Source: Cohnella algarum
Lineage (GTDB): Bacteria; Bacillota; Bacilli; Paenibacillales; Paenibacillaceae
Length of the DNA stretch: 64,000 bases
Direction of reading: 5' to 3'
NCBI RefSeq assembly: GCF_016937515.1
Contig: NZ_JAFHKM010000002.1
Span: 5,265,001 to 5,329,000 of the forward strand
Within the stretch, counting starts at the first letter, position 1; each line of letters starts with the position of its first letter. The notes under the pieces are model-generated. The model saw only the letters and a list, made by a program, of their open reading frames with translations. It was not told the origin of the DNA and made no database searches. Shown here piece by piece: positions 1-12,756 of the stretch. Position numbers and translations under genes: made by a program.

Positions 1-490
1 TCCGCTCCGCGACCTGCTCGATCGTACGCCCTTCGGTGTCCAGATGGCATCGAAACGCTTCGTGGGCGAGCCCTTCCGCGCACCGGTCGATTTGGCGCGC
101 CGCCCACGAACGGCCGCCTTCCCCCCGGCTTCGGAGCCGTTTGAGCAGCGTTTCCCGCGAAGCGCAAAGCGCGAAATGACGAACCGTCTCACCGTCCGTT
201 CGGAGGCGGCCGACGATTTCCTCGAAATAAGTCCGATTGACGATCGTCATCGGCACGATAACGGCGCCGGAATGACGGACGGCGATGGAGGACAGCATTT
301 TATAATTGAATTCCCGCCATAGCGGATCGTCCTGAAAATCGTCCGTTTGCAGCGATCGCGGCATGTTTTTGCGCAAAAAATACCCGACATTTTCCGGATC
401 GTACAGATAGCTGCCCGGCACTCTTCGCTGCAGCTCGTGCGCCGTCTGGGTTTTCCCCGAACCGAAAGCGCCGTTGATCCAGACAATCAT
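1..490 (-). CDS. tmrB: TmrB-like ATP-binding protein (3' end outside window)
   Basis: The protein starts MIVWINGAFGSGKTQTAHEL, with a Walker A P-loop (GAFGSGKT) at residues 8-15. It stays open to the window edge, giving 163 residues. I recall the same opening, and the later VPMTIV and SWAAKQIDRC-like stretches, from Bacillus subtilis TmrB, a membrane-associated ATP-binding protein that gives tunicamycin resistance when overexpressed. The start at 490 is preferred over an out-of-frame ATG at 494 because it begins the family consensus and has GGGGAGG about 10 nt upstream. The role in this organism is inferred; it could be a related zeta-toxin-like or kinase-like NTPase. Confidence 0.75.
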   Translation of the reverse strand, partial: MIVWINGAFGSGKTQTAHELQRRVPGSYLYDPENVGYFLRKNMPRSLQTDDFQDDPLWREFNYKMLSSIAVRHSGAVIVPMTIVNRTYFEEIVGRLRTDGETVRHFALCASRETLLKRLRSRGEGGRSWAARQIDRCAEGLAHEAFRCHLDTEGRTIEQVAER

Positions 491-608
491 CCATGATGCC
501 TCCCCGCGCCATGATTTCCGGCCTTTTCATATATGCCGTCTATTGTATCATACTTTCGGAACGCGGGTTGCCCGAATCCGGGCCGGACCTCATGAATGAC
601 GCCTGATC

Positions 609-1937
609 TCAACCATCCCGATTATTCCGTTCGCCTTTTTCGGCCGCAATCTCCTCGTCCAGCTGCTGTTGTCCCCTTTCTTGCACCGATTTCAGCGCTT
701 CCTCCAACGTTTGGGTACCCGCGCGCACCTTTGCGATCTCTTGGTTCACAATGCTGTCGAGCTGGCTCGCGAATCCCTTCGGGACGCGGCTCAAGTCCTT
801 GCCGAGCTCGTTCAAATTGGGACGTTGGCTGTACAAAGCCTCGACATGCTTGCCGTCAACGTTCCAAATGTATTGGGTCCGCGTCGGCAGCATATACGGC
901 ACCGTTCTGGATCTGAGCCTCGCCATTTCGTCGCTGTTGACGAACTTGACCAACTGCCACGCGGCCTGCGGATAGGGCGACTTCGCGTTTACGGTGTAAA
1001 TCTCCGAATAATACGTAAAGGAAGAAGATTCCCGGTCCCTCGCGTCCGACGGCGGAGTGACGATGTCCCAGTCCGGCTTGAAATCCGAACCCTGCTTCAT
1101 CTTCGCCGGCCGGATCACATTGTTGATATAATAGGAATAATCGATCGCCATCGCGCTTTTTCCTTGTATAAACGGATCTTCCTCATTCGCGGAAGCCGGC
1201 GGGGCCAGCGCCCCGGTTCGATAAGCGTCGACAAGCATGCCTGCCAGTTTGCTTACGGAAGGCGTAACGGCGGTTACGGTTAGCGTCGTCGGATTAAAAA
1301 GCTGAACGTCGTGACTTGACGCCATCAGGCTCGTCAAAAATCCGGCATCCAAGGAAGAGTACAGCCCGAAAATGTCTTCGCCAAGCCCTGCGAACCGGCT
1401 CGCCAGCTGGAACAGTTCCTCCCATGTCATATTGTCCGTCGGGTAGGGGATGCTGTAGCGGTCGAACACCTTTTTGTTATAGTAGATTGCCAAATTCAAA
1501 TAGAACGGAGGAAGTCCGTACAGTCGGCCGCCGCCTTGCTGCTTGAGCGCCTCGACGATCCCGGGATGCATCCGATCCAGATCGAAACGGTCATCCGTAA
1601 TCAGGTTGTGCAGGTCGTATAGCGCGCCTTTTTCATAGAGCAGATTGAAATCGGCGGGAAGAAGCGCCATCACGTCCGGCTCCTGTTCCGCTACGGTCCG
1701 GACGATATCGCGGCCCTCGTACGGCACGAATTCGATCGTCATATTGGGATGTTGAATAAGGAAAAGCTCGCCGTATTCGCGCATAAAAAAGTCCTCGGAA
1801 GACACCATGACCTTCAGCGTCGCCTCTTTTTTCCACTCGCCGTCAAACGTCGCCTCGTTCCCGGAACCGGTGCAGCCGGTTAGCGCCGGAAGGAGGCATA
1901 GGATGAGCAACATGCTTCTTTTGCGCTTTCTCGTCAT
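609..1937 (-). CDS. Extracellular solute-binding lipoprotein (family 1) at the end of the Cys-rich peptide operon
   Basis: This 442-residue protein has a basic N-terminus, a hydrophobic segment and the lipobox LTGC at residues 19-22, so it should be an exported lipoprotein. The body resembles sugar-type ABC substrate-binding proteins. It is the last gene of the operon headed by the Cys-rich peptide at 4919-5035. Its start lies about 95 bases inside the 3' end of the ABC exporter gene, with GGGGAGG about 12 nt upstream. No importer permeases are beside it, which is unusual for this family. It may serve the exported peptide (binding, immunity, recapture) or work with a transporter elsewhere; neither can be decided from sequence. 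Confidence 0.8.
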   Translation of the reverse strand: MTRKRKRSMLLILCLLPALTGCTGSGNEATFDGEWKKEATLKVMVSSEDFFMREYGELFLIQHPNMTIEFVPYEGRDIVRTVAEQEPDVMALLPADFNLLYEKGALYDLHNLITDDRFDLDRMHPGIVEALKQQGGGRLYGLPPFYLNLAIYYNKKVFDRYSIPYPTDNMTWEELFQLASRFAGLGEDIFGLYSSLDAGFLTSLMASSHDVQLFNPTTLTVTAVTPSVSKLAGMLVDAYRTGALAPPASANEEDPFIQGKSAMAIDYSYYINNVIRPAKMKQGSDFKPDWDIVTPPSDARDRESSSFTYYSEIYTVNAKSPYPQAAWQLVKFVNSDEMARLRSRTVPYMLPTRTQYIWNVDGKHVEALYSQRPNLNELGKDLSRVPKGFASQLDSIVNQEIAKVRAGTQTLEEALKSVQERGQQQLDEEIAAEKGERNNRDG

Positions 1938-3771
1938 GTTCCTGTTTCGCCTCCCCGCCGGAATGCCGATACCAGCGCGATTGAGCGCTGAACATTCGCG
2001 AATAATCCCCGTTTTGTTTCATTAGACTTTCATGCGTCCCTTGCTCCGCGATTTTCCCGTCCTTCATGACGACAATCAGATCGGCGCGAACGCAGCTTCC
2101 CAGCCGATGGGAGATCATCAGGCTGGTTTTTCCTTCGGCAAGCATCGAAAATCGCTCGAACAGGGCCGCTTCCGACAACGGATCCAGCGCCGAGGTCGGT
2201 TCGTCGTAAACGACGATTTCGGCATAAGTGTTAAAAAAGGATCGGCCCAACGCCACCTTCTGCCACTGCCCCTGCGACAGTTCCTGCCCTCCCTCGTATT
2301 CCGGCGCCAGGTCCGTATCGAATCGCGACGGCAGCTTTTCTACGACGGTCAGTGCTCCCGATTGCGCCGCCGCCGCTTCCAATTTCGAGCGATCGTTCAT
2401 TTCGTCGATGTACCCGAACCCGATATTCTCCCTGACCGTCAACGGAAAATGCACGAAATCCTGGAATACGGCGCTGATTTTGTCCTTGTAGCCCGGAATC
2501 TCCGAGATCGGCGTACCGTTCCAGTAAACGCATCCTTCCTGGGGTTCGTACAGGCCCAGCAAACATTTGATCAACGTGCTTTTCCCCGCGCCGTTGGGTC
2601 CCACGATCGCCACTCGCTGCCCCGGCTCGATGCGCAACGATACCTCTCTCAAGATCCAGTCTTCGCGGCCGGGATAGCGGAAGCTGACTCCGCTGACGGT
2701 AAGCCCTGCCCAATCCTGATGTTCCGGCAGCGGCTCCGTTTTTTGGCCTTTGGCGGTCCTTTCCTCTCGCAAAACGAGAAAATCGAACAGCTCGTTAGCA
2801 AATAATGCGCTTTCATAAATATTGGCCAGATGAACCGCAACAATGGAAACTTGGTTTTTTGCCGTGTTGACGGCCTGCGTCAGCGCAACGAACTGTCCCA
2901 GCAGCAGCTTTCCTTGACTCGCCAACACAACAAGATATCCCGCCGAAAAAACGATGGCCAGATGGGACAGAAGCTCGGCGTACATGACGAAAAACAAGCC
3001 TGATTTTTCGAGCTCCTTCTGTTCGTTTGCATTTTTCCAAAAGTATCGGCTCCACTTTTCCGTCATATAGGCATACAAGCCGAAAAGCTTCATTTCTTTG
3101 GCCGATTCTCTGCGCGTAATCAATCTCATCAAATCGTTCATTCTGCGGTTCGTTGCGGTCTGCCCGAGCAACTGGCGGTAACGGAGCTTGCCCAGGCGAA
3201 GCTGAACGAGAAAACCGGGTACGGTCAGCACGACGATACCGATGCCCAGAAGAGGGTGAAGGTCGACCAGCAGAAACACGAGCGAGAAAATCGTGACAAA
3301 GCCTTGGAACAATTGGAACAGATGATCCAATATGTTTAAACCTCGGCCGGCCATCCCCTGAGAGACCCGCTGAAGCCGATCGTAGTACGAGGGATCTTCG
3401 TAATAGATGAAGGGCAGTTTTTGGCATTTTTCGGCAATCAACAGATCGGCCTTGTACTGCACTTTCTGCTTCAGCTTCAGCAGCCAAACCTGGCTGACGG
3501 CTTTGATCCATTGTTGAACCGCGAACGCCAGCGTTTGAAGTCCCAACCACATCGCGGCAAGGCGCAGTTGGGACGCGTCGCCCCCGACCAGGCGGGCTAC
3601 GGCGTCAACAAGCTGCTGGGTCAACAGAATCTGACCGGCCGGAAGCAGAGATTCCAGAATGCGAACGGACAGGAGAAGCGAAAATGCGGTCCCGTCCGTC
3701 TTCCAAATAAAAGGAATCAAACGTGCGAGCAGATTCGTAAAAACCCGATTGCGGTTTTCGCCCTTATACAT
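1843..3771 (-). CDS. ABC exporter, fused permease and ATPase, in the Cys-rich peptide operon
   Basis: This 642-residue half-transporter has an N-terminal membrane domain (about residues 20-320) and a C-terminal nucleotide-binding domain. The Walker A GPNGAGKST is near residue 390, an LSQGQ signature near 496 and a Walker B with YDEPTSALD near 517. The signature has Gln where LSGGQ is usual. There is no N-terminal C39 peptidase domain, so it should not cleave double-glycine leaders. This fits the short upstream peptide, which has no obvious leader. It starts 15 nt after the thioredoxin-like gene with a weak AAGGA site. I infer that it exports the Cys-rich peptide. Confidence 0.85.
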   Translation of the reverse strand: MYKGENRNRVFTNLLARLIPFIWKTDGTAFSLLLSVRILESLLPAGQILLTQQLVDAVARLVGGDASQLRLAAMWLGLQTLAFAVQQWIKAVSQVWLLKLKQKVQYKADLLIAEKCQKLPFIYYEDPSYYDRLQRVSQGMAGRGLNILDHLFQLFQGFVTIFSLVFLLVDLHPLLGIGIVVLTVPGFLVQLRLGKLRYRQLLGQTATNRRMNDLMRLITRRESAKEMKLFGLYAYMTEKWSRYFWKNANEQKELEKSGLFFVMYAELLSHLAIVFSAGYLVVLASQGKLLLGQFVALTQAVNTAKNQVSIVAVHLANIYESALFANELFDFLVLREERTAKGQKTEPLPEHQDWAGLTVSGVSFRYPGREDWILREVSLRIEPGQRVAIVGPNGAGKSTLIKCLLGLYEPQEGCVYWNGTPISEIPGYKDKISAVFQDFVHFPLTVRENIGFGYIDEMNDRSKLEAAAAQSGALTVVEKLPSRFDTDLAPEYEGGQELSQGQWQKVALGRSFFNTYAEIVVYDEPTSALDPLSEAALFERFSMLAEGKTSLMISHRLGSCVRADLIVVMKDGKIAEQGTHESLMKQNGDYSRMFSAQSRWYRHSGGEAKQEHDEKAQKKHVAHPMPPSGANRLHRFRERGDV

Positions 3772-3786
3772 GTTCCTTGAAAGCCG

Positions 3787-4317
3787 CTAAGCCGCGAGCT
3801 TCCATGCTCCCTTTGCGATCAGCGTCTTTACGTGTTCTTCCGTATTCACGATTCCTTTGGCTCGCACGAGGCCATCCGCGGAGACAAAGAAACCGGAAGG
3901 CACGGCGGACATGCGGAAGCGGGAAAAATCGTCGACGGAAGCGACCGGGATGTGCAGACCGAGCTGCTCTTTCACCGCTTCCGCCGGAGCACCCGTCATA
4001 AAGATGACGAAGCGATACCGCGGAAATTGCCTCTGCATCGTATCCAAGACTTCGTACAAACGTTTGCATGCATCGCAGTAAAAATTGGTCATCAGCACGA
4101 CCGTTCCTTCCGACGGCAGAGGGGTATCCGAGGATTGACGGCTTTTTAACGCCGGATAGTCGTCCAGCGGAAACCTCTCTCCGATGGCGATTCCCATATG
4201 ATCCTGGTGAAGCCTGCCGGCTTGCGCGATATTATGTCTTAATATCGTCAGAAAGCTGTATGCAATGACCAGCACGACGCCCCATAAAGCCGTCATGCCG
4301 ATAAAATCCGCATTCAT
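3787..4317 (-). CDS. Membrane-anchored thioredoxin-like (MauD/TlpA-like) protein
   Basis: This 176-residue protein has one N-terminal membrane segment (about residues 8-27) and then a thioredoxin-like domain. The active site is FYCDACKR (CDAC), and a cis-proline loop is seen at AVPSGFF. It is probably anchored with the redox domain outside the cytoplasm. It lies between a MauE-like gene and an ABC exporter, downstream of an eight-cysteine peptide. In methylamine dehydrogenase clusters MauD and MauE are needed for the disulfide-rich small subunit. By analogy this protein may form or reshuffle disulfides in the peptide. Whether it acts as oxidant, reductant or isomerase cannot be read from the sequence. 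Confidence 0.8.
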   Translation of the reverse strand: MNADFIGMTALWGVVLVIAYSFLTILRHNIAQAGRLHQDHMGIAIGERFPLDDYPALKSRQSSDTPLPSEGTVVLMTNFYCDACKRLYEVLDTMQRQFPRYRFVIFMTGAPAEAVKEQLGLHIPVASVDDFSRFRMSAVPSGFFVSADGLVRAKGIVNTEEHVKTLIAKGAWKLAA

Positions 4318-4355
4318 CCGCTGCTTCGCCTCCTCTCTTTCAAAACGCGTTTTTT

Positions 4356-4868
4356 TCAGGCAAACGTCTTTTTATACCTGCGAACCGCCGCGAGCAGGCC
4401 ATAAAGAACGAGCAAGGACCAAGCGATCAACAGATGCGTGACGAACGTTTCCCGCGCCTGGTATATCGGAGTTGATGACATAGGCGCAAAGAGTAAAACC
4501 AGGCTGACGACGCTTAAAACTCCGATACGTATATTCGTGTTGCGCCCGAAGCGGTCGTCGATCAAGCCTCCGAAGCAGCGGCAATCCACCAATCGCCCGC
4601 GAGCCCGGATCCCCGCCCAGAGGAAAATAGCAAGCAAAACAAGCGAGCAGACCGCGCCGTGACGAATCGTTTCGTTAAAAAGCAGCAGTCCGGCCGTTGC
4701 GAATTCCGCTAGCGGAATAAGGACGGCGCCGGCCGCGGCCGCTCGTTTCGAGAACTTGAGCTGGAATATCGTTTCCCGAAATACCGCCCATTCCGCCGCT
4801 TTGGAAACCGAAGAGTAAACATACACGACCAGCAGAAAGGTTTGAAAAAAAGCATACATTCGCCTCAC
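4356..4868 (-). CDS. MauE/DoxX-like redox-associated membrane protein
   Basis: This 170-residue protein has four to five hydrophobic segments and a CRCFGG motif (about residues 95-100) beside a membrane segment. A CxCFG-type motif is characteristic of MauE-like proteins, which pass electrons across the membrane to a thioredoxin-like partner. It is second in the operon, 50 nt after the Cys-rich peptide and 38 nt before the thioredoxin-like gene, with GAGGTGAGG just upstream of the ATG. The inferred role is membrane redox partner of the CDAC protein during oxidative folding of the peptide. Confidence 0.8.
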   Translation of the reverse strand: MRRMYAFFQTFLLVVYVYSSVSKAAEWAVFRETIFQLKFSKRAAAAGAVLIPLAEFATAGLLLFNETIRHGAVCSLVLLAIFLWAGIRARGRLVDCRCFGGLIDDRFGRNTNIRIGVLSVVSLVLLFAPMSSTPIYQARETFVTHLLIAWSLLVLYGLLAAVRRYKKTFA

Positions 4869-4918
4869 CTCGCAATCTCAGGGAGACAGGGACGGTCGCC
4901 CCTGCCCCCCCTCTCAGG

Positions 4919-5035
4919 TTAGCATCCGCAATTGCAAACTTGGCAGCCGTCATGGTAATACTGGCAAAGCAACGTTTTGCCCGTACCGCAAACATACGAG
5001 CTGCAGTACGTATACAAGTAGGACCCGGAGCACAT
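4919..5035 (-). CDS. 38-residue cysteine-rich peptide, putative precursor of an exported disulfide-rich peptide
   Basis: This small gene encodes 38 residues, eight of them Cys (positions 2, 11, 16, 24, 31, 34, 36 and 38) and six Tyr, ending in GCQVCNCGC. A perfect AGGAGG lies 8 nt before the ATG, and a TTGACA/TAAATT promoter sits about 180 bp upstream. It heads an operon with MauE-like, thioredoxin-like, ABC exporter and lipoprotein genes. It has no signal peptide, no double-glycine leader and no nearby radical SAM, LanM or YcaO-type enzyme, so the eight cysteines most simply predict up to four disulfides. The operon context suggests a secreted bacteriocin, toxin or signal. I do not recognise the family. 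Confidence 0.8.
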   Translation of the reverse strand: MCSGSYLYTYCSSYVCGTGKTLLCQYYHDGCQVCNCGC

Positions 5036-5063
5036 GAGAAAAACCTCCTTTCCGTTTGATATT

Positions 5064-5090
5064 TATAGTTAAGGCTGAGCCTTAGCTATA
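5064..5090 (-). promoter_or_regulatory. 27-bp near-perfect palindrome in the leader of the Cys-rich peptide operon
   Basis: The palindrome is centred on G5077. Its 13-base arms match except for one pair. It lies between the putative promoter (5208-5236) and the ribosome binding site (5044-5050). It could be a repressor operator or an mRNA stem-loop that controls or protects the leader. It has no U-run, so it is not an intrinsic terminator. Confidence 0.55.
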
Positions 5091-5207
5091 CGAAGTCAAG
5101 GGTGACCTAAAATCCATAAATACGTGCAATCGTTTGCATTTTTGCGTTTAAACGCTTACAATTAACGTGAGACGATAGTTAACCGTATGAATTTACTTAT
5201 ATATTCC

Positions 5208-5236
5208 AATTTAGTTTATTTTTGTATTTTTGTCAA
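5208..5236 (-). promoter_or_regulatory. Sigma-A-type promoter of the Cys-rich peptide operon
   Basis: On the minus strand there is TTGACA (5231-5236), a 17-nt spacer and TAAATT (5208-5213), in AT-rich DNA that contrasts with the GC-rich surroundings. The predicted leader is about 165 nt long. The rest of the gap up to 5432 shows no further gene or signal that I can support. Confidence 0.6.
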
Positions 5237-5432
5237 CGGTGATTAAAGCGTTTTCAAAATAAAATTAAACTTTCGCCTCTCCAGTACACTTCTGCCTGCG
5301 AGCTCGCTTCCGGCTTTAACGTAATTCACAATTCGTTCGACCGAGGCCGAGAACCGCCCGGCGGCCGAATTAACGGCCCCGAGACGCCGTTATTTGCCGT
5401 TTTTCTCGCATGGAGAGCAATCAGACAAAGAA

Positions 5433-5470
5433 GGCTGTCCCCCAAGCCTTTTCGACCTTTCGGGACAGCC
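5433..5470 (-). terminator. Intrinsic terminator after the TetR-family gene
   Basis: GGCTGTCCC and GGGACAGCC form a 9-bp stem 40 nt after the TetR stop codon, followed on the minus strand by the modest T-rich tail TTCTTTG. Confidence 0.6.
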
Positions 5471-5509
5471 TAATGGATTAACCCCTATGAACGAAATAAC
5501 CAAAGGCGC

Positions 5510-6613
5510 CTATCTCTTCGCCAGCTTCGCGCACCGCCTCGCATACTCGCGCGGCGTCTGCCCCGGCACGCGGGAGACGGCGAACGCGCCCAGCCGGTTG
5601 AAGGCGTCCTCGAGCGCGCGCTGCAGCGATTCGGCGGCCGGCTTGTCTCGCACGGTCCACACCGCCACCGCCCGATCGGCCACCCATGAAGGCTGCGCTT
5701 CCAACGCCGCGAGCAGCCGCTGCGCGGATGCCGACATCTCGCCGAATCGCGTTGTCGCGACGATGACGATGAGCCGCGGGCACGCCTGCTCGCATACGTC
5801 AAGCAGCTCGTCTTCGCGCTCGACCGTTTTCAGCTCCAGGCCATGCCCTACGCCGAGCCCTTCCAGCAGCTCCTCGATTTCCGCCCTTCCCCGCTCCCAA
5901 GCGTCCGGCGGCATCAGCACGAACGCGCGTCCTTCGATTCGCTCCGTTTCGCTCAGCGCGACACCCCTGCGGTTCGTTTCCTCGCGCGGCAGCACGCCGT
6001 ACAGCGTCAGCTTGATCATCTGATCGACGAGCAGTCCTTGCAGTTCCTCATACGTGCCGTCAAGAGCGAGCTCCTCCCGCAAATCTTCCACGCCGCGGAA
6101 ATAAAACTGGTTCATCATGCCCCAGATCAAATGAAGCAGCACCCGCTCGTTAACGTATTCGTGAAGGACGCCGGCCCGTTTCCAGCCGGCCAGCATCCCG
6201 GATTTTCGCTCGGTATCCGTCGTCCAGTCGGCAGACGCGTATTTGGAAAACAAATCCCCGCCTTCGATCGCTTCCCGCTGATAGATTTTGTACAGGTTGG
6301 GGAGCTTGCACTTCAGTTCGAAATGCTCCTTGATATATTTCCGAAGCAGCTTCTCGGGGTCGTCGTCCGTCAGCTCGATGTCCCGGACGTACGATTCCCA
6401 TTGCCGGAACAGTCGGGTGACGACTTCCTCGTAAAGCTTTTCCTTCGAATCGAAATAATAGTGGATCGACGCCTGATTGACTCCCGCCTTGATCGCGATT
6501 TCGCTCATCCGGCTTCCCGCGAAGCCGTTCCGGACGAATATCTCCTCGGCCGCGTTCAAAATGCGCTCCTGCGCCGTCGCTTTCGCCTCTTCCGCGCTTA
6601 TCGTTTCCGCCAT
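5510..6613 (-). CDS. TetR-family regulator with a C-terminal extra domain
   Basis: This 367-residue protein has a TetR DNA-binding domain at about residues 14-60 (RILNAAEEIFVRNGF, then a helix-turn-helix with SIHYYFDSKEKLYEE). A ligand/dimerisation region runs to about 210. TetR proteins are usually about 190-220 residues long. Here roughly 150 more follow, with an alternating beta-alpha pattern (RAFVLMPPD, RLIVIVATTRFGE, DRAVAVWTVRD) suggestive of a flavodoxin-like or Rossmann-like fold. It lies just downstream of a RutA/RutB-like operon, and RutR of E. coli, which controls rut, is also a TetR protein. It probably senses a compound related to that operon. Confidence 0.8.
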   Translation of the reverse strand: MAETISAEEAKATAQERILNAAEEIFVRNGFAGSRMSEIAIKAGVNQASIHYYFDSKEKLYEEVVTRLFRQWESYVRDIELTDDDPEKLLRKYIKEHFELKCKLPNLYKIYQREAIEGGDLFSKYASADWTTDTERKSGMLAGWKRAGVLHEYVNERVLLHLIWGMMNQFYFRGVEDLREELALDGTYEELQGLLVDQMIKLTLYGVLPREETNRRGVALSETERIEGRAFVLMPPDAWERGRAEIEELLEGLGVGHGLELKTVEREDELLDVCEQACPRLIVIVATTRFGEMSASAQRLLAALEAQPSWVADRAVAVWTVRDKPAAESLQRALEDAFNRLGAFAVSRVPGQTPREYARRCAKLAKR

Positions 6614-6709
6614 CAGGCCGCCTCCTCCGTCCCGACTGCCGTTTCCCGACGTCTTGCCTCAAGGATTCGGCGCGTTTCGTTTCGTTCCCATTTTACGTTT
6701 TGCCGGTTG

Positions 6710-6739
6710 AAAAAGAAAGACGCCCGCAAGCACGCGGGC
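6710..6739 (-). terminator. Intrinsic terminator after the Rut-like operon
   Basis: GCCCGC and GCGGGC (6722-6739) form a hairpin directly after the M20 stop codon. The minus-strand tail is rich in T (6710-6719). It separates the catabolic operon from the TetR gene. Confidence 0.65.
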
Positions 6740-6740
6740 T

Positions 6741-8060
6741 CTACTCGACCAAGCGGTTGCAAACGAGCCAGGCGGTCGTTCCGTACACGACGGCGGCGTC
6801 AACCATATCGTCGACCGTCGGGCGGAACCGTTTCGGTCCGTACGTGACCGCAGGGATTCCGTACATATTGAAAACATTATGATCGCGCCACATGCTGGAA
6901 TAAATCGAATGGGCGATCGGCGTTTCCCCTCTGCCGGCCGAGACGCTCGCCCGGCTGAACGCTCGGTGCAGTCCGGCCGCTTCGGTCGCGTCGGCTTCGA
7001 AGCCTTTCCGGAACACGATCGGCTCGACGCGGCCTTCGAAGCCTTCCGACCGCAGCAGCCGCTCCAGCTCCCGCTGGGCGTCCGCGATCGTCTGGACGGG
7101 CGTCAGCGTCAATTCGACGTAAACGGAGCATACCTCGCTGCCGCCGCCCATCAGGTGAGGATCTCCGCCGCGGATGGCGCCGATCTGCACCTTGGGCACG
7201 GCCGTGCCGCCGGGAGAACGGTAGATGTTCCGCTTCTCGAAGTCGACGCACCAGCGCTGAAGCGCTTCGATGAAAGGAGCCACCTTCACGAGCGGGCTCG
7301 GATGCCGCCGCAGCTCCTCCGGATGCTCCAGCAGCGGCGTGAACACGTCTTCTCCGTAAAGATCGATGCGCATATTCGCGTGTCCGGACGACACCCAGGA
7401 GATGCCGAAGTCCGTTCCCTCGGCGGCGACCGCGAAATCCGGAGCGACCCCTCCGTGCGTCATCATGAACTGGGCGCCGATTTCCTTCCCGAGAAACTGC
7501 GGCCCCCGAAACTCCTCCACGTGCTCCGGGCCGATCTCCGCCGGGCAAGCGGTCAAATACAGCGTGCCCGCCATCGAAAGGCCCGCCCGCTTCAGCGCTT
7601 TGGCGCCGATCAAAAAGCACGACATCGGCCCCCGGTCGTTCTCGACCGGCCTGCCCGAGAAAACGCCGTTTTCCAGCTTCGCCTGCAGCCATTCCGGCTT
7701 GTCGGCCGAGCCGGGCCGATATTTCCAGCGATCCGATTCGTTATATTGAGGAGCCTCCGTATCCAGATGGCTCGTAAACAACAGATTGCGCCCGTTCAAC
7801 GGATCGTCCCCGCCGCAGCGGCCGATAACGTTGAACCGGTCCGGCACCATGCCGACCCGTTTCGGGGCGAACGACTCCTTTTGCATCCACTCGTACACGA
7901 AATCTCCGGCCGCTTTCTCGTAACCGGCGAGGCTCGGAATGTTGCCGAGCTCCAAAATGAGATCGATCAGCTCCTGCCGATCGATCGCCGACCGGATTCG
8001 CTCCGCAGCCTCGCGAATCTCGGCGTCGGAAACGCGGCTGCCCGACTTAGCGATGATCAT
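6741..8060 (-). CDS. M20-family metallohydrolase (ArgE/DapE/ureidopropionase-like)
   Basis: This 439-residue protein has M20 features: a metal-binding TSHLDTE near residue 112, a PAEIGPEHVEE segment, a dimerisation domain and a C-terminal GIPAVTYGP. M20 enzymes hydrolyse amide bonds of N-acyl or N-carbamoyl amino compounds with two metal ions. The start at 8060 is chosen over an upstream start because GGGGAGG lies 6 nt before it. It overlaps the isochorismatase gene by 14 nt, so the two are translationally coupled. Beside RutA-like and RutB-like genes, it plausibly hydrolyses a ureido or carbamoyl intermediate. The exact substrate is unknown. Confidence 0.8.
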   Translation of the reverse strand: MIIAKSGSRVSDAEIREAAERIRSAIDRQELIDLILELGNIPSLAGYEKAAGDFVYEWMQKESFAPKRVGMVPDRFNVIGRCGGDDPLNGRNLLFTSHLDTEAPQYNESDRWKYRPGSADKPEWLQAKLENGVFSGRPVENDRGPMSCFLIGAKALKRAGLSMAGTLYLTACPAEIGPEHVEEFRGPQFLGKEIGAQFMMTHGGVAPDFAVAAEGTDFGISWVSSGHANMRIDLYGEDVFTPLLEHPEELRRHPSPLVKVAPFIEALQRWCVDFEKRNIYRSPGGTAVPKVQIGAIRGGDPHLMGGGSEVCSVYVELTLTPVQTIADAQRELERLLRSEGFEGRVEPIVFRKGFEADATEAAGLHRAFSRASVSAGRGETPIAHSIYSSMWRDHNVFNMYGIPAVTYGPKRFRPTVDDMVDAAVVYGTTAWLVCNRLVE

Positions 8061-8724
8061 GTATACCTCCCCGTTGTTCGTTCTCCCAGCTACGGAGCGC
8101 TTGCTCCGTCGAAACGACGGTCGCGAAATTAAGCGCCATCGACTTGAGCGAGGCGTCGTGCAGGTCCCGCTCGTAAGCGGCACAGGCATCGGAGACGACG
8201 AACGTCTCGTAATCCCGCATGAACCCGTCCCGGACCGTCGATTCCACGCAGCACTCGGTCGTAAACCCGGCTGCGACGAGCTTTCGGATCCCCTTGCTTC
8301 GGAGCAAAAGCTCCAAATTCGTCCCGACAAAAGCGCTGTATCGCTGTTTGGTCACCTGCAAATCGCCCGCAGCCGGAAAAATGCGGTAATAAGCCGCCCC
8401 TTCCGTCCCGCTTCGGCATACCGCCGCGGCGGAGGCGTCGATGCCCTGCCGCCCGTACCATTCGAGCATCGCCGGAGAATCGGTGTCGGGCGAGGTGACG
8501 AGCGCGACGAACACGACCGGCATCCCGGCCCTGCGGGCGGCCTCCGCGAGCCGCTCGATCCGGTCCGCGGCGGCATCGATCGCGGACAGGTCCGCCCCCC
8601 AGGCGGCCATTTTGCCGTCCGGCGAGCAGAAGTCGCGCTGGACGTCGATCAGAACAAGCGCCGTCTCCCGCAGCGGCACGACCGTCTTCTCGCACACGCA
8701 AGATTCCTCCTCCGAATATGTCAC
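8047..8724 (-). CDS. Isochorismatase-family (RutB-like) cysteine hydrolase
   Basis: This 225-residue alpha/beta hydrolase of the isochorismatase family shows the catalytic Asp in LVLIDVQRDF, the Lys in VTKQRYSAF and the nucleophile Cys in TTECCVEST. RutB, ureidoacrylate amidohydrolase, is in the same family and has a comparable RCVEST motif. The start is a GTG at 8724 with AGGGAA upstream. It lies between the RutA-like and M20 genes. Predicted action: hydrolysis of the ureido or amide group produced by the monooxygenase. Related families such as N-carbamoylsarcosine amidase and biuret hydrolase cannot be excluded. Confidence 0.8.
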   Translation of the reverse strand: MTYSEEESCVCEKTVVPLRETALVLIDVQRDFCSPDGKMAAWGADLSAIDAAADRIERLAEAARRAGMPVVFVALVTSPDTDSPAMLEWYGRQGIDASAAAVCRSGTEGAAYYRIFPAAGDLQVTKQRYSAFVGTNLELLLRSKGIRKLVAAGFTTECCVESTVRDGFMRDYETFVVSDACAAYERDLHDASLKSMALNFATVVSTEQALRSWENEQRGGIHDHR

Positions 8725-8771
8725 AGACTTCCCTTTATTGCCTTATGTGCCGCAAGCCGCCCGGCGCGGCG

Positions 8772-9845
8772 TCAGCTTCCCCTGTTCGCCCGCAGCTCCG
8801 GCAGCACCCGTTCGCCGAAAAACCGCATATCCGCATCGTAATCGGGGAACGTCAGCATCATGCCGTCCAGCTCGGCCGTTTCGATAATCGTCCGGATTTT
8901 GGCGACGATCGTCGCCGCCGAACCGGAAATCGGCTCCGACATGAACGCCGTGCGGGCTCTCGCCGCAATCGACGTCTCCTTGCCGTCGACCGCCATGCCA
9001 TAGCTTTCGAGCAGCCCGACGATAGCCTCGCGGTCGACGCCTGCCTCGTACCGCTTCATCCGCGCTTCCGCTTCCGCGTCGGTTTCGCCGGGATAAATGC
9101 CGAACATCGCGTACGTTTTGATCGGCTTGTCCCGCTCCCGCGCCATTTCCTTCGCGCGCTTGCTTACCTGGGCCAGCTCTTCGACGTCCTTGCCGCCGAT
9201 GAAGCAGGCGTCCCCTTCCTCGATCGTAAAGCCCATCCCCTTTTCCGATTGGCCCGCGCAAATGATCGAAGGCCTCGGCTTCTGCACCGGCTTCGGATTC
9301 GACATGCAATCGGTCAGTTGATAGAACGTCCCTTGATGATCGACGCGCTCTTCGCTCCACAGCCGCTTGACGACCTGCATCCATTCGCGCGCGAGATCGT
9401 AACGCGCGTCGTGATCGAGGTGTTCCGGCCACATGCCCATCTGCGAAAATTCCTTGGAAAACGACCCCGACACCACGTTCATGCCGACCCGTCCGTTGCT
9501 GATCTGGTCGAGGGTGGCGAACATTTTGGCGGCGACGGCGGGATGGAACAGCAGCGTATGCACCGTCGCGTACACTTTGACCCGCTTCGTCGCCTCGGCC
9601 AGTCCCGCCATCATCGTCATCGATTCGAGCGAAGTTCCCCAATGGTTCGTCCGCCCGCCGTAGCCGCGCCATTTGGCCATCGACATAATGAAGTCGAGAC
9701 CGATTTCTTCCGCGAGCACGGCCGCATTGCGGTTTTGCTCATAGCTTCCTTCCACCTTGGGCGTCGTATCCGAGATGATCCAGCCGCCGTTCGAAATCGG
9801 AAGAAACACGCCAAAATCGATTTGATTGTAGTCGATGCCGCTCAT
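8772..9845 (-). CDS. RutA-like flavin-dependent monooxygenase (LLM family)
   Basis: This 357-residue luciferase-like monooxygenase is close to RutA, the FMN-dependent enzyme that opens the uracil ring. Shared stretches, recalled from E. coli RutA, are GVFLPISNGGWIIS at the N-terminus, FIMSMAKWRGYGG, SLESMTMMAGLAEAT, and ICAGQSEKGM, with a C-terminal MLTFPDYDADMRFFGERVLP. It sits downstream of an NMT1-like importer and upstream of RutB-like and M20 hydrolases. Likely substrates are a pyrimidine or a similar N-heterocycle, with a separate flavin reductase needed. The distance to true RutA leaves room for a different ring substrate. Confidence 0.82.
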   Translation of the reverse strand: MSGIDYNQIDFGVFLPISNGGWIISDTTPKVEGSYEQNRNAAVLAEEIGLDFIMSMAKWRGYGGRTNHWGTSLESMTMMAGLAEATKRVKVYATVHTLLFHPAVAAKMFATLDQISNGRVGMNVVSGSFSKEFSQMGMWPEHLDHDARYDLAREWMQVVKRLWSEERVDHQGTFYQLTDCMSNPKPVQKPRPSIICAGQSEKGMGFTIEEGDACFIGGKDVEELAQVSKRAKEMARERDKPIKTYAMFGIYPGETDAEAEARMKRYEAGVDREAIVGLLESYGMAVDGKETSIAARARTAFMSEPISGSAATIVAKIRTIIETAELDGMMLTFPDYDADMRFFGERVLPELRANRGS

Positions 9846-9885
9846 TGTTCATCACTCCATGAATAAAGTCTGTTTGCCGCGACGT

Positions 9886-11022
9886 TTAGGGCCAGATCAG
9901 CTCGCCGTCCGCGTAAATCGAATCGATGTACGCATTGTCCATCACTTGTTCCAGCGGCAATGCCTTCGGGATCACCTTCGCCTGGACGAGCATGTCGATT
10001 TCCCGCTGCCACTGCTCGTCGGTCTGCACGGCGACGCCCTGCCCGGCGGGTAGATGGTCCGCGATCAGGCTGCTTTCGACCGTCCACCGGTTCGTTTCCG
10101 CCGCAACGTCATAGCCGGTTTCGGAATGCGACGCCATCCTCTCGATCGCCTCGTCCGGATTTTCCAGCACCCATTCGTGCGCTTTGGACAGCGCTCTTAG
10201 GAAATCCTCGACGGCCGTCGGATGCGCTTCTGCGAATTCGGAGTTCACCGCCACGACGCCGAACGACGTCTCGCCGCCGAAGTCGCCCGGATCGATCAGC
10301 CGCGTTTTGTAGCCTTCCTTCTCCATAATATATGGCTCGTTCGTTTTAAATACGGTTAATGCGTCCAGATCGTTTCCAGCCAAAATCCTCGGGTCGTAGC
10401 CGACGGATACGGCTTTGATATCCGTTACGTCGAGTCCGTCCGCCGCCAGCATCGTGACGACCCAGGGAGGAATCGCCCCCTTGTACCCCAGCGTCTTGCC
10501 CGCCAGGTCCTTCGGGCTTTGAATGTCCGAATCCTCCATCACCATAATCGCATTGACGCCGACGGAGCCGAAGGTGGCGACGCCCTTGATTCCCGCTCCG
10601 CTCGCGACCGACTGGATGACAAGACTCGGATTGCCCGCGCTCGAGATTTGCGCCTGCCCCGCCGCGAGATATTTCATCCCTTCCGAATCGAGTCCCGGCT
10701 GAACGTCCACGTCAAGCCCAAGCTCCTCGAAATACCCTAGATCCCGGGCGACGACGGCTTGCACGTCCGGCGACGAAGCCGCATAAAAATAGCCGGTCGT
10801 ATACGTAATTTTGCCCGCCTTTTGATTTTCGGCCTTGCGGGCCTCCCAGTCGATGCCGGAACCGGCCGTTCCGGCGGGAGAAGCGCTGGCCGGAGGCGAC
10901 GCGGCGGCCGAAGCGGACGGCGACGCGGCCGTATTCCCGTTTCCGCAGGAAGCGAGCAGCAGAATGGCCGCCATCGTCAAGACGGACCTATACGCAAGTT
11001 TTTTCTTTGCTTTCATCAGCAT
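9886..11022 (-). CDS. NMT1/THI5-like (SsuA/TauA-type) substrate-binding lipoprotein
   Basis: This 378-residue protein has a signal sequence with the lipobox LLASC (about residues 21-25), a low-complexity Ala/Ser/Pro linker and an NMT1-like fold (VVARDLGYFEELGLDVDVQ, then VASGAGIKGVATFG). This family binds thiamine precursors, pyrimidines, sulfonates and nitrate-type ligands. The start at 11022 has GGGAG upstream. With the permease and ATPase above it forms a complete importer. The downstream RutA-like enzyme suggests that the ligand is the ring substrate of that enzyme. Confidence 0.85.
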   Translation of the reverse strand: MLMKAKKKLAYRSVLTMAAILLLASCGNGNTAASPSASAAASPPASASPAGTAGSGIDWEARKAENQKAGKITYTTGYFYAASSPDVQAVVARDLGYFEELGLDVDVQPGLDSEGMKYLAAGQAQISSAGNPSLVIQSVASGAGIKGVATFGSVGVNAIMVMEDSDIQSPKDLAGKTLGYKGAIPPWVVTMLAADGLDVTDIKAVSVGYDPRILAGNDLDALTVFKTNEPYIMEKEGYKTRLIDPGDFGGETSFGVVAVNSEFAEAHPTAVEDFLRALSKAHEWVLENPDEAIERMASHSETGYDVAAETNRWTVESSLIADHLPAGQGVAVQTDEQWQREIDMLVQAKVIPKALPLEQVMDNAYIDSIYADGELIWP

Positions 11023-11044
11023 ATTTATCGACTCCCGTCCTCTT

Positions 11045-11896
11045 TTACCGGCTCCACGCCAGCACTTTTTTCTCGATGGCGCCGACGATCGCCGTCAGCA
11101 GAATGCCCATCGCCGCAAGCATCATGATCGCCGCGAACACCTTGACCGTCTGCATGTAATTGCCGAACATCATGACGACGTTGCCCAAGCCTTCGCTGGA
11201 GCCGCTCCATTCCGCCACGACCGCTCCGATGACGCTGAGGCTGATGCAGGTTTTGGCCGCGGAGAACAAATAAGGAAGACTGCCCGGCAAACGAAGCTTG
11301 AAAAAGATTTCCCGCTTGCCGGCGCACAGGGAACGCATATAGTCGTAACGGTTCGGATCGACCGCCCTGAACCCGGTTATGGAATTGACCAGCATCGGGA
11401 AAAACGTGATAATCGCCGCGATCAGCACCTTCGGCAGCGCCCCGAAGCCGAACCAGATGATCAGCAGCGGCGCGATCGCCACGACCGGTGTCACGCTGGC
11501 CAGCACCGCCAGCGGCAGCAGCATTCGCTCAAGCGCCGGAGAATGGGCCAATACGACGCCGAACAGCAAGGCGACCCCCGCTCCGAGCGAAAAACCGGCG
11601 ACCGCTTCGTACAAGGTGACCATCGCATGATCAACGTAAAAGCCGAATTCGGAAAACAAGGCGCGGAACACAGCCGACGGGGTCGGAAGCGTAAGCGGGT
11701 CGACCCCGAATAAGCGGACGAAGCTTTCCCATAAGACGAAAAACCCGACAAAGGCGACAAGGGGCAGTCTGCTGCGGGCCCACCAATCCTTGATTAACGG
11801 ATTCAGCCGCGTTTTCGCTAACGTTCCCTCTCGGCTCGACGACGATTGAGCTCTGCCGAACACGCTCGTTCTGATCGCCATTTTGCTTATGCCCAC
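11045..11896 (-). CDS. ABC importer permease (SsuC/ThiX type)
   Basis: This 283-residue protein has about six membrane segments and the EAA-loop region typical of binding-protein-dependent importers (around DPNRYDYMRSLCAGKREIFF, then KLRLPGSLPYLFSAAK). It is of the nitrate/sulfonate/thiamine-precursor class. It overlaps the ATPase gene by 10 nt. The start could also be the second Met, five codons in. Confidence 0.85.
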   Translation of the reverse strand: MGISKMAIRTSVFGRAQSSSSREGTLAKTRLNPLIKDWWARSRLPLVAFVGFFVLWESFVRLFGVDPLTLPTPSAVFRALFSEFGFYVDHAMVTLYEAVAGFSLGAGVALLFGVVLAHSPALERMLLPLAVLASVTPVVAIAPLLIIWFGFGALPKVLIAAIITFFPMLVNSITGFRAVDPNRYDYMRSLCAGKREIFFKLRLPGSLPYLFSAAKTCISLSVIGAVVAEWSGSSEGLGNVVMMFGNYMQTVKVFAAIMMLAAMGILLTAIVGAIEKKVLAWSR

Positions 11897-12663
11897 CTCT
11901 CCTTGAGCAAATGTTTGATTTGCCGGACATAATCGAAAAACGCGTCCGATTCTTCCAGCTCCTGCGTGCGCGGCCTCGGCAGCCGAATATCGACGATTTC
12001 GGTAATCCGGCCCGGCCGGCTCGTCATGACGACGACTCGATCCGACAGGAAGACGGCTTCCGGAATGCTGTGGGTGACGAAGACGACCGTCTTCTTATGC
12101 TGCTCCCAAATGTCCATCAGTTGATGGCGGATCATTTCCCGCGTAATTTCATCTAGCGCCGAAAACGGTTCGTCCATGAGCAAAATCGGCGCGCCGGAAG
12201 CGAACGCCCTGACGATGCCGACTCGCTGCTGCATTCCCCCCGACAATTCCCGCGGATAAGCCGTCAGAAAATCGCCGAGGCCGACGGAGGCGAGCCACTC
12301 CGCCGCTTCCCGTTCGTCGTAGGACGCCCCGCCTCCTTTCTTCCGGTTCACTTCGAACGGCAAGCGCATGTTTTCGATGACCGTCCGCCACGGAAACAGC
12401 GCCGGCGACTGCGGAACGAATCCGAACCGCTTGTCGGATTGCGCTTGCTTCGGCGTCAGCCCTCCGACCGAAAGCCGTCCCTCGTCCGCCGTTTCCAGGC
12501 CGCCGATCATTCGCAGCAGCGTCGATTTGCCGCATCCGCTCGGCCCGATCAGACTGACGAACGTGCCTTCCTCCAGGCTCAGCGCGACATCGCGCAGCGC
12601 CTCCGTCGTTTGTCCGCGCCTAACATACCGTTTGGAAATTCGGTCCGCCGTTATGTACGACAA
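11887..12663 (-). CDS. ABC importer ATPase (SsuB/ThiZ type)
   Basis: This ATPase of about 258 residues has Walker A GPSGCGKST, signature LSGGMQQR and Walker B ILLMDEPFSALD, and closely resembles SsuB/TauB/ThiZ ATPases. No ATG is available in frame. A TTG at 12663 is preferred because a GGCGGTGG-like site precedes it and the conserved domain begins two residues later. A TTG at 12687 is the alternative. It is the first gene of the importer and Rut-like operon, downstream of the promoter at 12757-12785. Confidence 0.82.
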   Translation of the reverse strand: MSYITADRISKRYVRRGQTTEALRDVALSLEEGTFVSLIGPSGCGKSTLLRMIGGLETADEGRLSVGGLTPKQAQSDKRFGFVPQSPALFPWRTVIENMRLPFEVNRKKGGGASYDEREAAEWLASVGLGDFLTAYPRELSGGMQQRVGIVRAFASGAPILLMDEPFSALDEITREMIRHQLMDIWEQHKKTVVFVTHSIPEAVFLSDRVVVMTSRPGRITEIVDIRLPRPRTQELEESDAFFDYVRQIKHLLKERWA

Positions 12664-12756
12664 CGGAAACCACCGCCTTTCGAGCAATTTTCGACTTTAA
12701 TCATTTGATTTAAAATTTTAGTTATTTATTTTTATCATTCAGTTAAATCTGTATCC

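Follow-up and report, generated by a model that had tools for sequence, protein, structure and literature searches.

A leaderless eight-cysteine peptide gene in a MauE, thioredoxin-like and ABC exporter cassette of Cohnella algarum: a candidate bacteriocin cassette of the laterosporulin kind

Introduction

A stretch of 64,000 nucleotides from Cohnella algarum (contig NZ_JAFHKM010000002.1, positions 5,265,001 to 5,329,000 of the forward strand; hereafter the window) carries near its start a gene of 38 codons that encodes eight cysteines, followed by genes for a MauE-family membrane protein, a thioredoxin-like (Trx) protein, an ATP-binding cassette (ABC) exporter and a lipoprotein. The locus raises the question of what such a cassette makes and to what end. 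Our analysis makes it likely that a leaderless peptide is exported by the cassette and oxidatively folded into a disulfide-locked form, and that this peptide is most probably a bacteriocin, laterosporulin-like in function and unrelated to laterosporulin in sequence. The features are listed below; ORF stands for open reading frame, SBP for solute-binding protein, and loci from our survey are cited by L numbers.

4919..5035, minus strand: gene for the leaderless 38-residue peptide with eight Cys, by ORF reading; eight-Cys homologues in L074, L076, L080 and L081
4356..4868, minus strand: MauE-family membrane protein, by Pfam MauE and the family alignment A1
3787..4317, minus strand: Trx-like protein, predicted to be membrane-anchored, with a CDAC site and a cis-Pro, by alignment and AlphaFold model; nearest PDB fold ResA
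1843..3771, minus strand: ABC exporter, no C39 peptidase domain reported, by Pfam and NCBIfam scans and the ABC tree
609..1937, minus strand: SBP_bac_1 lipoprotein, no permease gene found nearby, by Pfam and a permease search
5208..5236, minus strand: promoter-like TTGACA-17-TAAATT upstream of the peptide gene (weak evidence)

The peptide gene and its conservation

The window peptide has its first Cys at residue 2 and carries neither a leader nor a double-glycine site. With Cys as the next residue, the initiator Met is probably cleaved off; the computed monoisotopic mass is 4036.5 with Met off and four disulfides formed, and 4167.6 with Met. When the window was scanned for ORFs with an ATG start, a six-of-six Shine-Dalgarno (SD) hexamer, at most 90 residues and at least four Cys, this was the only one in 64 kb, and none was found in the adjacent 13 kb. 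The preliminary description of the window had made its reading depend on the small ORF being kept beside the same kinds of genes in related genomes. It was kept in four loci of a second genus within the family (L074, L076, L080 and L081), at 54-71% identity and with all eight Cys in register, and homologous MauE, Trx and ABC genes adjoin it there; with the window included, 8/8 Cys were aligned in 5/5 loci carrying a peptide of this type. Between the window gene and that of L081, synonymous change was 0.94 (saturated) and non-synonymous change 0.23.

A search of 5.8 billion proteins with the window peptide alignment, which works through exact 5-residue words in common, found no peptide but that of the window itself, so annotation appears to miss its relatives, within the limits of a word search. 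No NCBIfam family was matched at E values up to 1, no Pfam model matched, and the peptide profile A2 gave no match to the PDB at E values up to 10. A GG leader with a C39 exporter, as in double-glycine class II bacteriocins, was not found in the cassette; its sequence features are those of the leaderless, class IId kind (no leader, no double-Gly site, exporter without C39). The cassette type looks accessory, because in three congeners (12 kb fetched) it was absent beside a conserved TetR gene, and other members of the genus with MauE matches had different peptides or none that was found.

Layout and products of the window cassette

The peptide gene is preceded by the SD sequence AGGAGG at 5049-5044, eight bases 5' of its ATG. 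Counted from the peptide gene, the intergenic gaps are 50, 38 and 15 bases, and the ABC and lipoprotein ORFs overlap by 95 bases. The five genes are probably co-transcribed as one operon. The MauE protein probably starts at the ATG at 4859 rather than 4868. The preliminary description had the coordinates and genes right for the 38-codon, eight-Cys gene with its perfect AGGAGG and for the four genes downstream. It had also proposed a single promoter; a promoter-like sequence is indeed present, but the scan found 4 such sites against 3.3 expected, and one promoter is weakly supported because such sites hardly exceed the expected number.

The window MauE scored 63.4 bits with Pfam MauE (PF07291, cut-off 27), as the earlier assignment had it, and in the family alignment a Glu (E55) and a CxCFG loop were invariant in 9/9 sequences. 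The Trx-like protein had been described as a MauD-like thioredoxin with a CDAC site. The CDAC site and the Trx fold were borne out, whereas the likeness to MauD is remote: the MauD equivalog TIGR02661 gave 42.8 bits, below its cut-off of 188.6, and Pfam Thioredoxin_2 gave 15.2 bits, below its cut-off of 27. The CxxC motif and the cis-Pro (Pro140) were invariant in 20/20 aligned members of the family. The AlphaFold model (predicted local distance difference test score, pLDDT, 88.5) has a Trx fold, to which ResA was the nearest in the PDB, and an N-terminal helix at residues 3-33, from which we read a membrane anchor. With CxxC, cis-Pro, Trx fold and predicted anchor, the protein has the features of an extracytoplasmic thiol-disulfide protein. 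Extra genes matching the Trx profile were observed near some cassettes of the window type (two in L074, three each in L076 and L080) and were not seen in the window; the two in L074 are weakly AhpC-TSA/Redoxin-like, below cut-off.

The exporter was likewise recognized correctly as an ABC protein lacking C39: its ATPase scored 102.6 bits with Pfam ABC_tran (cut-off 25), NCBIfam exporter models span residues 16-598, and no C39 domain was reported by the Pfam and NCBIfam scans; the ABC transmembrane Pfam model gave 11.6 bits, below its cut-off of 28. The lipoprotein, previously noted only as such, can now be defined as an orphan SBP of the sugar type (Pfam SBP_bac_1, 80.2 bits, cut-off 26). No permease gene of the MalF/MalG type, as expected of an SBP_bac_1 sugar importer, was found near it in window bases 1-12000 with one MalF and one MalG query (phmmer).

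Laterosporulin loci have a cassette of the same kind

In L138, the ORF at 2605-2757 matched the NCBIfam laterosporulin family (NF033806) at 116.6 bits, with a cut-off of 40, and its product agreed with laterosporulin (4ozk) at every aligned residue. The peptide gene is followed by a Trx gene (2846-3331; identified by family profile, no Pfam match), an ABC gene (3334-5184), a MauD-like Trx gene (5189-5623), which matched TIGR02661 'methylamine dehydrogenase accessory protein MauD' below cut-off, and a MauE gene (5620-6153). Three further loci (L139, L163 and L092) had a gene content like that of L138 and peptides matching NF033806; the L092 peptide matched the laterosporulin structures 6lwy (E 5e-9) and 4ozk (E 5e-8), and no match to it was found in the plasmid collection. 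The 2012 account of laterosporulin describes a purified peptide that starts at residue 2, an ABC protein without an N-terminal protease domain, and neighbours named hypothetical, ABC transporter and 'dehydrogenase' (PMC3293901). By sequence, the MauD-like Trx would fit this 'dehydrogenase'. In that account a 4 kb fragment is described with a regulator, the peptide, the hypothetical, ABC and 'dehydrogenase' genes and no others, and attempts to express it reportedly failed (PMC3293901), as did 6.7 kb clones from relatives (PMC6510442). Laterosporulin is reported to have three disulfides (PMC6510442) and a structure called defensin-like (PMC6989792, PMC6510442). No paper linking laterosporulin to MauE or Trx was found in the literature searched, which was covered in part and with subscription papers outside the search.

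The Brevibacillus laterosporulin operon, of the leaderless class IId kind, thus shares with the window a leaderless Cys-rich ORF, a C39-less ABC gene, a CxxC (MauD-like) Trx gene and a MauE gene in one row. It differs in gene order (Trx-ABC-Trx-MauE after the peptide) and in its peptide, which is unrelated in sequence and has 6 Cys against the 8 of the window peptide; the latter is not a match to NF033806. No SBP was found in the 12 kb of L138, whereas L092 also has an SBP lipoprotein.

In a tree of 34 cassette ABC proteins and six own-genome paralogues, all cassette ABCs, those of the laterosporulin loci included, fell on one side of a branch with a Shimodaira-Hasegawa-like approximate likelihood ratio test (SH-aLRT) value of 100. 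The paralogues were 6 of 11 extracted rows; the other five had no match to the window ABC and were probably wrong frames. Sixty-nine other cassette ABCs scored 175-638 bits against the window ABC, and own-genome paralogues 155.7 at most. In the tree the window ABC was closest to its counterparts in L074, L076 and L081, loci whose peptides likewise stand nearest to the window's. The bacteriocin-like, disulfide-rich peptide that the preliminary description had envisaged gains an experimental anchor here, since a cassette of this kind also encodes laterosporulin.

Cys-rich ORFs are linked to the ABC gene at MauE loci

A scan of close relatives' contigs with a single MauE sequence gave only one remote locus. 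A MauE search of 100 related genomes gave matches in 9, the window's own included, and at these loci differing Cys-rich small ORFs were found, with near-perfect SD sites in most. The nine-row MauE alignment A1 was used as a profile (threshold E<=1e-6) and matched 53/392 genomes and 15/49 genera of the order, and 35/398 genomes and 19/146 genera of the class; not all of these matches are peptide cassettes. MauE rows were fetched and examined for all 64 from the order search and for 25 of the 42 from the class search, and linkage was scanned by script at 91 MauE loci from 79 genomes. A peptide was called strict if it had the ATG, SD hexamer, length and Cys features given above and lay outside the cassette genes; a locus counted as having the ABC gene if a homologue of the window ABC was present at E<1e-20, a definition that would miss other exporters.

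A homologous ABC gene lay within about 4.5 kb at 72 of the 91 MauE loci (62 genomes) and was lacking at 19. A Trx-like gene was present at 72/72 loci with the ABC gene and at 15/19 without it. Strict Cys-rich ORFs were found at 50/72 loci with the ABC gene versus 0/19 without (p 1.3e-8); a first pass had given 48/71 versus 1/20, its single exception being L080, where the ABC gene lay beyond the fetched end. Their density was 65-fold higher in the cassette zone (55 in 182 kb) than outside (2 in 433 kb). Under relaxed criteria, 66/72 ABC loci had a peptide, the others being L024, L089, L090, L145, L146 and L152; in L089, one frame matches the L093 peptide.

Some loci departed from this pattern. 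In L018 and L085 the ABC gene is broken into two frames, and in L018 the MauE frame is interrupted too, with the peptide ORFs open; these are possibly decaying cassettes or assembly errors. In L022 a MauE and Trx pair stands beside large multi-domain genes, by eye like those of nonribosomal peptide synthetases, with no ABC gene and no strict Cys peptide, and would represent another use of the pair. Near a MauE and Trx pair without an ABC gene, L061:11076-11222 holds a 48-residue ORF that is Cys-rich at its end and has an N-terminus resembling a leader; it may encode another type of ribosomal peptide.

The peptides form many dissimilar families

Under relaxed criteria there were 82 peptides in 37 clusters, 24 of them singletons, at a phmmer E<=1e-4 that may split short peptides too finely. 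Three clusters (L019_11670, L071_5478 and L083_9282) are probably chance ORFs and were kept in the counts of 82 relaxed and 58 strict peptides. The strict peptides had a median length of 44. In 54/58 the first Cys lay at most 14 residues from the start, which leaves little room for a leader, and in 52/58 the last Cys lay within 2 residues of the C-terminus. The number of Cys was even in 55/58, compared with 72% of 958 control ORFs with at least four Cys (p 1.2e-5, ignoring relatedness), as expected if all Cys pair. Ten related pairs from other cassettes gave a summed pS of 0.22 against a pN of 0.044 (synonymous and non-synonymous change), indicating purifying selection. Variants stood in tandem in several loci: six in L075, three in L068 and two each in L014, L055, L064, L078 and L021.

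A minority of peptides had longer N-termini (L125, L126, L143 and L158) and may carry leaders. A common N-terminal motif, P-x5-G-x-S-x2-[IL]-I-x-G-x-C, was observed in the peptides of L142, L149, L150, L151 and L094, and the first four of these cassettes have two MauE genes each; in this cluster the N-terminus may represent either a leader or a fixed domain.

The SBP lipoprotein

SBP homologues (E<1e-60) were present at 16/72 ABC loci, including L092 of the laterosporulin family; a phmmer search with one MalF and one MalG query gave no permease of that type within 3 kb of them. The SBPs nearest to the window's were those of L074 and L080, which have the same peptide. The SBP is a candidate immunity or peptide-binding lipoprotein, or a receptor. 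Elsewhere in the same genome, two tandem SBP_bac_1-type lipoproteins were observed at L196:4750-7850, with no permease labelled nearby.

Proposed mechanism and alternative explanations

In the proposed mechanism, the peptide would be made without a leader and exported in reduced form by the C39-less ABC protein. Outside the membrane, the anchored CDAC Trx-like protein, served by MauE, would make or shuffle four disulfides. The SBP-like lipoprotein would most likely protect the producer by binding the peptide, or else act as its receptor, and the folded product would be antibacterial.

Several points weigh against this mechanism. The function of the window peptide is carried over from the machinery only, because it has no detectable similarity to laterosporulin or to solved structures, and its predicted structure (pLDDT 56.7) is too poor for bond pairs. 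Proteins with a ResA-like fold often act as reductants, and the Trx may therefore be an isomerase or a reductase instead of an oxidase. The ABCs of the laterosporulin loci L138, L139 and L163 are far from that of the window (208-221 bits), and the two types fall in separate subclades and have different best NCBIfam models; the tree was made by a quick method, without bootstrap, and with own-genome paralogues as the only outgroup. In the survey, the strict criteria were fixed with knowledge of the first loci, loci that are related do not count as independent, and 22/72 ABC loci had no strict peptide. The SBP occurs in only the 16/72 ABC loci given above, and the idea of a family confined to cassettes was rejected: in the SBP tree, cassette and own-genome members are intermingled, and one paralogue from the window's own genome, at 169.8 bits, scores above many of the cassette SBPs. 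Because of this mixing, the SBP is seen as a broader lipoprotein family recruited to the cassette.

The alternative that fares best, though unlikely, is that the same machinery secretes the disulfide-rich peptide as a pheromone-like signal read by kin, with the SBP lipoprotein as the receptor. A small secreted peptide with an orphan SBP lipoprotein would suit such a role, but no sensor kinase or regulator is found among the five cassette genes, the 37 mutually dissimilar clusters and the arrays with as many as six variants in tandem suggest an arms race, and the one characterised product of such a cassette, laterosporulin, is a bacteriocin. An antifungal peptide, or one directed against animals, is more improbable still: the defensin-like structure ascribed to laterosporulin (PMC6989792, PMC6510442) speaks for such a target, whereas the documented action of laterosporulin is antibacterial.

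Slightly less credit still can be given to a metal-binding peptide, metallothionein- or metallophore-like, whose Cys would be kept reduced by MauE and Trx and whose loaded form would be recaptured by the SBP. The eight Cys and the SBP would suit it, as would the fact that ResA-like proteins can be reductive, but the even Cys count in 55/58 peptides fits disulfide pairing, the SBPs of the 16 ABC loci lack a nearby permease of the type sought, and three disulfides are reported for laterosporulin, which is encoded in a cassette of this kind (PMC6510442). A spurious or relic ORF in an operon with another role, such as cell-envelope redox maintenance, is very improbable, being favoured by the protein search that returned only the window's own peptide and already contradicted by the Cys conserved in a second genus, the synonymous bias in related cassettes, the linkage to the ABC gene and the 65-fold density.

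Relation to known systems and wider meaning

As in methylamine dehydrogenase maturation, where MauE and MauD act, the window has a MauE above the Pfam cut-off with an adjoining Trx-like partner; unlike that system, its Trx falls far below the MauD equivalog cut-off and the apparent substrate is a small exported peptide. No methylamine dehydrogenase subunit family was matched by any of the six window proteins scanned (Pfam; NCBIfam among the matches listed).

Among leaderless bacteriocins, those of the aureocin A53 and enterocin DD14 kind are not known to have disulfides or a MauE or Trx partner. They are likewise made directly as active peptides, and enterocin DD14 differs in that its export has been tied to PH-domain proteins; how leaderless bacteriocins are produced and exported is said to be poorly understood (PMC7616364). 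Sublancin has BdbA/BdbB beside it and bactofencin A a Trx-domain protein, but sublancin has a 19-residue leader and a glucose, and MauE is not mentioned for these systems in the passages concerned (PMC5100339, PMC7616364). In Streptomyces, the 2020 decRiPPter study proposed mauE beside precursors with at least eight Cys, once with mauD also, as a mark of gene clusters for ribosomally synthesized and post-translationally modified peptides (PMC7794033). Those families are predictions, compared with the window by description only, and the leaderless state and exporter linkage are not stated in the passages describing them (PMC7794033). The cassette is thus not wholly unprecedented, laterosporulin and the Streptomyces MauE-linked precursors having come before (PMC3293901, PMC7794033); what is new is the breadth of the family, the machinery common with laterosporulin and the recurrent orphan SBP.

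A broader proposal is put forward tentatively, at somewhat less than even chances. The C39-less ABC protein, MauE and an anchored CxxC Trx, sometimes with an extra Trx or an orphan SBP, may define a kind of ribosomal peptide found across the class, presumably Bacilli, by its machinery and not by its peptides. It would comprise some three dozen leaderless disulfide scaffolds without detected mutual similarity, laterosporulin being one, with peptides that gene callers largely miss; the window branch would be self-protected by a peptide-binding lipoprotein of the SBP fold. The cassette provides a gene set, defined and testable, for leaderless peptide export and folding, and a way to read laterosporulin's neighbours. 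It gives a practical rule for peptides missed by annotation, namely to find MauE, Trx and C39-less ABC genes together and then the adjoining small Cys-rich ORFs. The 37 clusters are candidate antimicrobials on disulfide scaffolds. It can now be tested whether the MauE-Trx pair, familiar from methylamine dehydrogenase, serves more generally to form disulfides in peptides that are secreted.

Neighbouring genes

The TetR gene upstream was set aside as an operon member: in the three congeners mentioned above it stands without the cassette (12 kb fetched), and its far side holds isochorismatase and luciferase-like monooxygenase genes. It belongs to a row on the minus strand (window 5510-12687) of TetR (RutR model, below cut-off), isochorismatase, luciferase-like monooxygenase, NMT1-type binding protein and ABC importer ORFs, which looks like a pyrimidine or related degradation cluster and includes ORFs that we take to be RutA/RutB-like. 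An Rfam scan of window bases 1-12000 gave no match at gathering thresholds. Directly downstream of the operon, at window positions of about 1-490 (L194:2894-3490, minus strand), lies an AAA_33 kinase-like gene, presumably TmrB-like.

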